Of a stretch of DNA of 64,000 nt, positions 8,239 to 33,166 are shown one piece after another (the first letter of the stretch is position 1; every line of letters starts with the position of its first letter). The notes under the pieces were generated by a model, which saw only the letters and a program-made list of their open reading frames with translations, was not told the DNA's origin and searched no databases. Source of the stretch: Pseudoponticoccus marisrubri (GTDB taxonomy: Bacteria > Pseudomonadota > Alphaproteobacteria > Rhodobacterales > Rhodobacteraceae); the NCBI RefSeq assembly GCF_001482405.1, contig NZ_LPXO01000015.1, forward strand, positions 1 through 64,000. The letters are read 5' to 3'. The translations under genes were made by a program, and so were the position numbers.

Positions 8239-9051
8239 TCAGCTCCGGCCGCGTCCCGGCGGGCTCCGCCGGCGCCGCACCGGGCGTTTCCTGGCCGTCG
8301 CCGTGCCCTCGGTCTCGGGGGCGGGCAGGCCCAGCTGGTCGCGCAGGATCTTGCGGCGCACCTCCTGCACCTCGCCCGGTTTCAGCTGGCCCAGCTGGAA
8401 GGGGCCGTAAGACAGGCGGATCAGCCGGTTCACCTCCAGCCCGATATCGGACATGGCGCGGCGGATCTCGCGATTCTTGCCCTCGCGCAGCCCGACGGTC
8501 AGCCAGGCATTGGCGCCCTGCTGGCGGTCCAGCGCCACGGTCATGGGCTGAAAGCGCATGCCGTCGACCTCCAGCCCGTCACGCAGCGGCGCCAGCATGG
8601 CATCGGTGGGCCGGCCCTTGACGCGCACGCGGTACTTTCGCAGCCAGCCGGTCGAGGGCAGCTCCAGCTTGCGCTTGACCCCGCCATCATTGGTCAGCAG
8701 CAGCAGCCCCTCGGAGTTCAGGTCCAGCCGCCCCACGCTCATCACCCGGGGCAGGTCGTCGGGCAGTTCGTCGTAGATGGTGGGCCGGCCCTGCTCGTCC
8801 CGCGTCGTGGTCACGAGGCCCGTGGGCTTGTGGTAGAGCCACAGCCGCGCCGCGTCGGGCGCCTCGAGCGGGGTGCCGTCCACGGTGATCCGGTCCGACG
8901 GGGTGACGTTCAGCGCGGCGCGTTCGACTTGGGCGCCGTTCACCGTGACGCGGCCGGCCTCGATCAGCCGCTCGGCCTCGCGGCGGCTGGCCCGGCCCGC
9001 GCGCGCGATGACCTTGGCGATTCGCTCGCCCTCTGGGGTATCCTTGCTCAT
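8239..9051 (-). CDS. rluB: 23S rRNA pseudouridine synthase, RluB type
   Basis: From ATG 9051 the product has 270 residues. An S4 RNA-binding domain spans about 8-55 (ERIAKVIARAGRASRREAER). The RsuA/RluB catalytic motif GRLDLNSEGLLLLT places the nucleophile at Asp-110, and KNREIRRAMSDIGLEVNRLI is the conserved C-terminal motif. The basic, Arg/Pro-rich tail is common in alphaproteobacterial members. RluB modifies the peptidyl-transferase region of 23S rRNA; distinguishing RluB from close RsuA-family paralogues rests on the S4 domain and overall likeness. It is divergent from tadA. Confidence 0.85.
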   Translation of the reverse strand: MSKDTPEGERIAKVIARAGRASRREAERLIEAGRVTVNGAQVERAALNVTPSDRITVDGTPLEAPDAARLWLYHKPTGLVTTTRDEQGRPTIYDELPDDLPRVMSVGRLDLNSEGLLLLTNDGGVKRKLELPSTGWLRKYRVRVKGRPTDAMLAPLRDGLEVDGMRFQPMTVALDRQQGANAWLTVGLREGKNREIRRAMSDIGLEVNRLIRLSYGPFQLGQLKPGEVQEVRRKILRDQLGLPAPETEGTATARKRPVRRRRSPPGRGRS

Positions 9052-9083: not shown

Positions 9084-9150
9084 GAAGGGCCTTCGAAGGC
9101 CCTTCAAAGCGGCGTGCACGCCGCTTGAAAGGCGCTTGCAAGCGCCTTTC
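9084..9150. repeat. Three tandem perfect palindromes between rluB and tadA
   Basis: Three unrelated perfect palindromes stand almost end to end: 9084-9105 (GAAGGGCCTTC and its complement), 9107-9126 (AAGCGGCGTG and its complement) and 9127-9150 (GAAAGGCGCTTG with its complement). The second and third are directly adjacent. They lie in the 129-base gap between two divergently transcribed genes, so they are not obviously transcription terminators. They may be operators, cruciform-prone repeats or part of a repeat family. Confidence 0.9.
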
Positions 9151-9180
9151 CCCCGCCCGCCGGGACCGGTACCAAGCGGT

Positions 9181-9621
9181 ATGAGTTTCGTGTCGCATAT
9201 GGACCTGGCGCTGAAGGCCGCGCGCGCGGCCTTCGCCCGTGGCGAGGTGCCGGTAGGCGCCGTGCTGGTCGCGCCCGGTGGCCGGGTGGTCGCCAGCGCC
9301 GGGAACCGCACGCGCGAATTGCAGGACCCGACGGCCCATGCCGAGATGCTGGTGCTGCGCGCCGCCGGGGCCGAACGGCTGCCGGACCATGACCTCTACG
9401 TCACGCTCGAGCCCTGTCCGATGTGCGCCGCCGCGATCTCTCTGGCGCGGATCCGGCGGCTTTACTACGGCGCCTCCGATCCCAAGTCCGGCGGGGTGGC
9501 GCAGGGGCCGCGCATCTTCAGCCACCCGCAATGCCACCACGTCCCCGAAATCTATGACGGGCTGGCCGAGCCCGAGGCGGCCGCGCTGCTGCGGGATTTC
9601 TTCCGCGCACGGCGGGGCTGA
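9181..9621 (+). CDS. tadA: tRNA-specific adenosine deaminase
   Basis: The 146-residue product has the zinc-dependent deaminase motifs HAE (His-53, Glu-55) and PCPMCAAA (Cys-79, Cys-82). It converts A34 to inosine in the tRNA-Arg(ACG) wobble position. The length and the C-terminal helix ending LLRDFF match the family. The start at 9181 is chosen because residues before it would fall in the palindrome array; a GTG-type or earlier start is less likely. RluE follows 68 bases downstream on the same strand. Confidence 0.93.
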
Positions 9622-9689: not shown

Positions 9690-10235
9690 ATGGCGCGCGT
9701 GATCCTCTTCAACAAGCCCTACGGCGTGCTGTCGCAATTCACCGATCGTGGCACTGCCGACAGCCCGCGCGCCACCTTGTCGGATTTCATCGACCTGCCC
9801 GGGGTCTACCCGGCCGGGCGGCTGGATCGTGACAGCGAGGGGCTATTGGTGCTGACCGATGACGGCAAGCTGCAGGCGCGCATCGCCAATCCCCGCTTCA
9901 AGCGCCCCAAGACCTATCTCGTGCAGGTCGAGGGCCGGGCCGAGCCCGCGCAGATCGCCGCGCTGCGCCGTGGCGTGACGCTCAAGGACGGCCCCACGCG
10001 GCCCGCCCGGGTCGCGGCGATCGATCCGCCCGTGCTCTGGCCGCGCACCCCGCCGGTGCGCTTCCGCAAGACCGTGCCGGATGGCTGGCTGCGGATCACC
10101 ATCACCGAGGGGCGCAACCGGCAGGTGCGGCGCATGACCGCCCATGTGGGGCTGCCCTGCCTGCGGCTGGTGCGCTGGGCGGTGGGCGACTGGACGCTGG
10201 ACGATCTGCCCCCGGGCGCATGGCGCGACGCGTGA
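9690..10235 (+). CDS. rluE: 23S rRNA pseudouridine synthase, RluE type
   Basis: The 181-residue product lacks an S4 domain. It starts [19 protein letters not shown] and contains [17 protein letters not shown] with the catalytic Asp-46, followed by [20 protein letters not shown] near the C-terminus. This short form without S4 is typical of RluE, which modifies U2457 (E. coli numbering) of 23S rRNA. It lies between tadA and a metalloprotease gene on the same strand. Confidence 0.9.
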
Positions 10236-33108: not shown

Positions 33109-33166
33109 AAATTTCGGTGAATGCGCCGCATTTGCCGAAATTTTGCCGCAATTTGACGTCAAATTG
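33109..33166. repeat. Paired hairpins after prmA
   Basis: AAATTTCGG (33109-33117) pairs with CCGAAATTT (33135-33143), with an inner AATGCG/CGCATT stem and a 2x2 mismatch between them. Directly after it, 33149-33166 is a perfect 18-base palindrome (arm CAATTTGAC). The arrangement of two AT-rich palindromes side by side resembles 23775-23832. It lies between prmA and a small membrane protein gene on the same strand. Confidence 0.8.

Follow-up and report, generated by a model that had tools for sequence, protein, structure and literature searches.

A tandem array of three perfect palindromes between rluB- and tadA-like genes of Pseudoponticoccus marisrubri is a copy of a dispersed intergenic repeat

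The stretch of Pseudoponticoccus marisrubri DNA analysed here (64,000 nucleotides, contig NZ_LPXO01000015.1, positions 1 to 64,000; hereafter the window) carries an array of three perfect, loopless and mutually different palindromes of 22, 20 and 24 bp between two divergently oriented genes (Table 1). The Pfam domains encoded by these genes fit rluB and tadA, with rluB as a putative name at the sub-family level, and a second PseudoU_synth_2 gene is located immediately downstream of tadA (9690-10235). As the original prediction had stated, the palindromes are perfect, different and in tandem, and they reside in a divergent intergenic gap, which is bounded by the ATG start codons at 9051 (minus strand) and 9181 (plus strand) and measures 129 bp, or 62 bp without the array. 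A single A (9106) separates palindromes 1 and 2, and palindromes 2 and 3 directly abut with a gap of 0; the pitch of 22 is also that of the two-unit arrays at the loci L088 and L139. For perfect palindromes with arms of at least 10, Markov models built from the window sequence at order 1, 3 and 5 lead to expectations of 0.5, 0.3 and 0.45 per 64 kb, respectively; four were observed, three of them inside 67 bp. RNA folding of the array predicts three hairpins (-46.6 kcal/mol, z -6.61), and the predicted DNA fold of the gap is likewise stable (z -5.90), so that the array is predicted to form three hairpins as RNA or as DNA. Two other perfect palindromes of the window lie apart from the array. The first, GAAGGCCGCGCGCGCGGCCTTC, the fourth in the region and 22 bp long, is located 62 bp from the array within the tadA codons for KAARAAF (9213-9234); the few relatives compared differ at this position, and it may be due to chance. 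The second is the 18-bp palindrome CAATTTGACGTCAAATTG (33149-33166), which has locally AT-rich surroundings.

Table 1. The palindrome array and its surroundings; positions are those of the window.
Feature	Position	Strand	Length	Remarks
Whole three-palindrome array	9084..9150	.	67 bp	
Palindrome 1, GAAGGGCCTTCGAAGGCCCTTC	9084-9105	.	22 bp	
Palindrome 2, AAGCGGCGTGCACGCCGCTT	9107-9126	.	20 bp	AAGCGGC-GTGCAC-GCCGCTT
Palindrome 3, GAAAGGCGCTTGCAAGCGCCTTTC	9127-9150	.	24 bp	AAGGCGC-TTGCAA-GCGCCTT core
C-rich outward flank, CCCCGCCCGC	9151..9160	+		like the flanks beyond the ends of other arrays
rluB-like pseudouridine synthase gene	8239..9051	-		Pfam S4 + PseudoU_synth_2; transcribed away from the array
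tadA-like tRNA adenosine deaminase gene	9181..9621	+		Pfam dCMP_cyt_deam_1; transcribed away from the array

Palindrome 1 includes AAGGGCCTTCGAAGGCCCTT, a word of the pattern AAGN4TTCGAAN4CTT that is also found in two further genomes, designated G345 and G405; palindrome 2 has a GT..AC centre like that of the minority words of L154 and L163 (GTCGAC); and the 20-bp core of palindrome 3 is identical to a core at another position in the same genome (G000:C3:224225-224244). A search of this genome with palindrome 3, allowing up to 3 mismatches, identified four further places, and in all of them the inner 20 bp are perfectly palindromic. The pattern AAGN4TTCGAAN4CTT occurs at 99 sites in the whole genome and its reversed control at 0, and a second word class, ACGCGNTTN4AANCGCGT, at 19 sites compared to 0 for the control. 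The former pattern imposes no pairing between its two N4 blocks. Among the 50 of the 99 matches listed, 48 sites are self-complementary, where random N4 would give 1 in 256, and this count is independent support for the pairing. In 464 kb of sequence (20 stretches and the window), 43 perfect palindromes with arms of at least 10 were counted versus 2-3 in Markov controls, and nine arrays in 660 kb extrapolate to about 50-60 arrays per genome; both the excess and the array density are slightly inflated because two of the 33 sampled 20-kb stretches (C3:20001-40000 and C3:100001-120000) were picked after hits had been seen there, a choice that does not affect the whole-genome counts. With about 50-60 arrays per genome, most gene ends have no array. 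Plasmid records yielded short, weak matches only. The window array belongs to a dispersed intergenic repeat family and is no peculiarity of this one promoter. The original prediction had also considered that the palindromes might be common, random-like genome words; common in the genome they are, and random-like they are far from being.

For this genome, 39 arrays were catalogued, mostly around the listed sites of both patterns. A stop codon precedes 38 of them, the copy in the window being the sole divergent case: 25 arrays lie in co-directional gaps, 13 in convergent gaps and one in a divergent gap, with gene ends taken from a simple codon-based gene caller, for which a slightly different score threshold results in 24 co-directional cases. 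Divergent gaps account for 34% of the intergenic bases and 23% of the gaps in the sample, and the deficit of divergent arrays (1/39) has a P of 2.5e-6 if weighted by bases and of 3.8e-4 by gap count. The distance from the stop codon to the array has a median of 17.5 nt and is at most 25 nt in 36 of 52 cases, and within co-directional gaps the array is located nearer to the stop codon (P 1e-4). Similarly, in G345 each of the 26 arrays with at least two units adjoins a gene 3' end, the distance from it being at most 15 nt in 27 of 36 cases, and three single palindromes in the loci of this genome reside inside called genes. In G405, seven of nine arrays are next to a gene 3' end and two are divergent. 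As the window copy and these two G405 arrays are divergent, the location at gene ends is a strong bias and not a law.

Hairpins just behind stop codons, and also between convergent genes, resemble intrinsic or bidirectional terminators, and the predicted fold does contain the stable hairpin that is characteristic of intrinsic terminators. However, the arrays differ from these in having two to four hairpins per site, in being built of genome-wide words, in occurring at few gene ends and in the absence of a T-tract: none of 52 tails behind arrays has four or more T in eight bases, by which a reading as T-tract terminators is rejected. The ten bases behind the array on the transcribed strand consist of 56% C and 7.1% T, compared to 16.6% T in the genome sample, and in two genomes the flanks of the arrays are rich in C in the outward direction. 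A generic terminator scan detected none at the window array and none at the four-unit array of the same genome in L104. Tandem terminators without a U-tract (I-, U- and V-shaped) have been predicted in GC-rich bacteria in the GeSTer literature. The arrays share with them the lack of a U-tract and the occurrence of several hairpins in a row; in contrast, the GeSTer-type terminators are heterogeneous predictions and are not known to constitute dispersed repeats built on a shared word grammar. Compensatory stem changes, as seen in the arrays, are described for terminators of Bacillus cereus in the accessible part of PMC5381666.

The rluB/tadA locus itself was compared among relatives. A divergent, adjacent rluB/tadA pair is present in 77 of 110 loci, and in none of these 77 gaps was a palindrome with arms of at least 8 found. 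In relatives the median length of the gap is 94 bp, and with a gap of 57-67 bp in only 14 of 77 an argument for an insertion based on gap length is weakened. When nine relatives with a short gap were aligned, CTTGCGAAAG was present in five and a near form in two, and it is probably a shared promoter element. The window gap does not contain this motif outside the array, and the core of palindrome 3, GCGCTTGCAAGCGCC, resembles it; either the motif was the landing site of an element, or the repeat family has taken in a near-palindrome that was native to this gap. In Pseudooceanicola nanhaiensis an array is located 8 nt behind tadA, and in G345 an array lies on the same side of tadA at a distance of 593 nt, closer to the end of another gene. 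The rluB/tadA region of P. nanhaiensis is flanked by two copies of a single two-palindrome element, one on each side and in opposite order (L008, 2075-2119 and 4459-4503).

The original prediction had treated the palindromes as a feature of the rluB/tadA promoter. It might be proposed, accordingly, that the three palindromes are an operator and bind a regulator of the divergent promoter, as the array is placed between both start codons and a motif like CTTGCGAAAGCGC, found in this gap in several relatives, is absent from the window outside the array. We consider this very improbable: palindromes are lacking in the gaps of the 77 relatives, words of the same class follow unrelated genes, and instead of one recurrent duplex sequence in promoters there are sites whose sequence varies from unit to unit, 38 of the 39 arrays residing outside divergent gaps. 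As the main account, a promoter or operator function is rejected in view of the dispersed sites together with the non-divergent position of nearly all arrays and the result in relatives, and the claim of a feature specific to this promoter is not upheld.

The anatomy of the arrays is highly regular. An array consists of two to four, mostly four, tandem perfect palindromes of about 20-24 bp, which are non-identical and follow each other at a near-fixed pitch; centre-to-centre, this is 24 or 25 nt in 83 of 109 steps, in a list that retains a few mis-called flank units. The commonest word order is AAGGCCC, ACGCGA or AACGCG, AAGCGG, AAGCCGC, with TTCGAA or TTGCAA at the centre and in either orientation, and nearly all catalogued units have AAG/CTT, AACG or ACGCG at their feet. 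Watson-Crick pairs make up 1316 of 1332 arm pairs, and the 16 mismatches include three G-T and two A-C. In an alignment of 31 of the 32 four-unit rows (L138 was left out, its first unit being a mis-called flank), 96.5% of the cells are paired, in 31 of 44 pairs both positions have changed, and the covariation score amounts to 0.395, compared to 0.095 in shuffled controls and no more than 0.092 in slid ones, values that are partly built in because the arrays were detected as palindromes. Two subfamilies, with 9 and 10 copies, have a palindrome identity of 95.6% and 93.6%, whereas the identity of the spacers is 35.7% and 51.9% (spacers of equal length, 65/108 and 70/135 comparisons; the second value is pushed up by two copies, L161 and L162, which have similar flanks). 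Thus, the palindromes are retained whereas the intervening bases drift. The identity of the 12-nt flanks is 50% and 47%, respectively.

That the palindromes are not copies of each other, as had been predicted for the window, holds throughout the family in this genome. The same seven outer stem pairs never occur twice in one array among 37 arrays, compared to 12.3 cases expected from reshuffling the same palindromes, and 0 was reached in none of 2000 shuffles. In G345, a repeated stem was likewise found in 0 of 26 arrays where 2.9 cases were expected (P 0.04), or 2.2 if only neighbours are considered (P 0.085). This rule arises in part from a preferred word at each position of the array. An outer closing stem was not indicated in 19 elements, as the complementarity of their flanks (5.79/8) was that of shuffled flank pairs (5.78/8), i.e. 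there is no element-specific pairing; the outwardly C-rich flanks might still provide a constant GC clamp. Two loci showed related arrangements. In G345 (L227, 804-848), the tandem palindromes CCGGACTTTGCGCAAAGTCCGG and CCGGACCCTGCGCAGGGTCCGG, which belong to another word class and follow the same design under a different grammar, fill a convergent gap, the two stop codons being 4 and 6 nt distant. At L179 in genome G141 (1501-1859), array units occur twice within about 360 bp with similar intervening DNA, which resembles a local duplication.

The occurrence of AAGN4TTCGAAN4CTT was determined in 394 genomes of the same bacterial family, nearly one per genus and including the present one, with controls giving 0-2 matches. 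At least one match was found in 88 genomes, at least 5 in 28, at least 10 in 23 and at least 30 in 10, and 306 genomes had none. In 113 sampled genomes from other families of the class there was never more than one match per genome, and 0 of the 14 sites were self-complementary. The repeat family is hence patchy in the bacterial family of the window, the named relatives being Rhodobacteraceae, and unseen in the 113 genomes of other families. Psychromarinibacter sediminicola has 29 sites and four other species grouped in the same genus have 0; P. nanhaiensis has 52 sites, mostly one AT-rich word among the matches listed, and two-unit arrays in the loci inspected. For one array of P. sediminicola, the homologous gene in all four congeneric species is followed by 300 nt without a palindrome (arms of at least 7), which is not a strict empty site because the downstream gene differs as well. 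A MITE-like element would have inverted ends and would be present or absent at orthologous sites; the observations bearing on this are the C-rich outward ends in two genomes, outer flanks that pair no better than shuffled ones, and this single site at which the array is missing in the four other species.

Some array positions are common to different genomes. When the 39 array gaps of the present genome were compared to the 35 arrays of G345 (26) and G405 (9), three were orthologous, and the numbers of palindromes in common at these places were 0, 1 and 0 (units with arms of at least 9). A homolog next to a G345 or G405 array was identified for 6 of 78 array-adjacent genes versus 5 of 579 other genes (P 7e-4), and 5 of 78 remain (P 0.003) if tadA, which has its G345 array on the opposite side, is left out; at the level of gaps the comparison is 3 of 39 versus 3 of about 374 (Fisher P 0.013). 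Two control gaps contain an array in the other genome and none in this one. Shared and unshared gaps indicate, at small numbers, that words turn over where an array stays in place and that arrays are also gained or lost. A selfish or passive mobile repeat, non-autonomous and without host function, that survives where it is harmless just after stop codons would be in agreement with the patchy distribution (at least 10 sites in 23 of 394 genomes, none in 306), with a genus in which one of five species carries the family, with linked P2/P3 subfamilies and with the C-rich ends. However, palindromes that remain 94-96% identical next to spacers that have drifted to 36-52% are not expected from neutral decay, and some positions are common to genomes of different genera; such a repeat is therefore an unlikely explanation.

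REP, BIME and REPIN elements are similar in being dispersed short intergenic palindromes that occur mostly at gene 3' ends, in small clusters and with tens to hundreds per genome. In contrast to these, the arrays described here unite, within a single element, perfect palindromes that have no loop and differ in sequence, and they have a near-fixed pitch of 24-25. The hairpin foot of REP/REPIN carries a GTAG or CGTC tag according to the accessible part of PMC3733652; this tag was not found in the arrays, where the feet named above prevail in nearly all catalogued units. The RAYT Y1 transposase (PF01797) was detected neither in the present genome (G000) nor in 12 of 14 carriers searched; it is present in 2 of the 14 carriers compared to 0 of 24 non-carriers searched, both genomes that have it being carriers. 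Since two of the three defining features tested, the tag and RAYT, are lacking and the dispersed gene-end habit is present, membership in REP/RAYT was rejected, and the arrays are rated as REP-like, REP/BIME being nearest in habit, but distinct. Bor of Bordetella is described as a REP-like stem-loop family that recalls REP in length and sequence; like other stem-loop repeat families it is found at gene 3' ends, and tandem non-identical perfect palindromes are not described for it in the accessible part of PMC1590033. Arrays of this type are likewise not described in the accessible parts of PMC3733652, PMC13155455 and PMC5381666, and no description was found in the open-licence literature searched. 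A comparison of the window and 16 further loci to Rfam 15 at gathering score returned one tRNA only, located away from the array. Integron attC sites, which consist of a single long imperfect hairpin with an R and an L box, came into consideration because they, too, follow stop codons.

Taken together, we regard it as moderately probable that the arrays constitute a REP-like family of strand-symmetric multi-hairpin gene-end elements, of which the window contains a displaced three-unit copy. A chain of hairpins at gene ends is the best-supported reading of their function as far as can be judged from sequence: once transcribed, the element would form a chain of short stable hairpins with UCGA or UGCA loops behind the stop codon, which might block 3' exonucleases, read-through or both. 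Since every unit reads identically on the two strands, the element would serve both of them, suiting narrow convergent gaps, and the different words of neighbouring units would let each hairpin fold on itself without cross-pairing to its neighbour. The elements are likely to have spread as units, as suggested by the linked P2/P3 subfamilies and by related species without the motif. The copy in the window would have landed or grown in a divergent gap, where it could act only as a 5'-leader or as a DNA-level structure, or have no effect.

Wobble pairs are almost absent from the arrays, which an RNA-only role would not require, and together with the near-fixed pitch this is compatible with a role at the DNA level. 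Gyrase-bound BIMEs are an example of DNA-level palindromic repeat sites. The arrays might, correspondingly, be cruciform or duplex binding sites, acting as supercoil sinks or sites for nucleoid proteins behind converging or ending transcription, with the symmetry being kept because both strands must fold or be bound. The perfect two-strand symmetry with its few G-T and A-C pairs, the near-constant pitch, the conserved positions of AAG, TT/AA and CTT, the stable DNA fold of the window gap and the divergent arrays in the window and in G405 are in line with such sites. On the other hand, a pure duplex reading would not need self-complementary variable N4 blocks, and the bias towards gene ends fits RNA at least as well, so that an exclusively DNA-level element appears rather improbable.

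Returning to the hairpin chains at gene ends, it might tentatively be speculated that they represent a gene-end punctuation of two to four hairpins with the grammar AAG-N4-TT[CG/GC]AA-N4'-CTT, in which neighbours are never identical and the pitch is about 24 nt. Words would be replaced at fixed positions by a DNA-level process, such as arm-templated repair or palindrome exchange between arrays, with structure and place persisting between genera and without a known transposase. If the gene-end reading is right, a common bacterial family would harbour a large and sharply defined set of gene-end structures without a T-tract, which some species of a genus naturally carry and others lack. Three questions would then become directly testable: the setting of mRNA 3' ends by hairpin chains, the spread of palindromic repeats in the absence of RAYT, and the maintenance of perfect symmetry over time.
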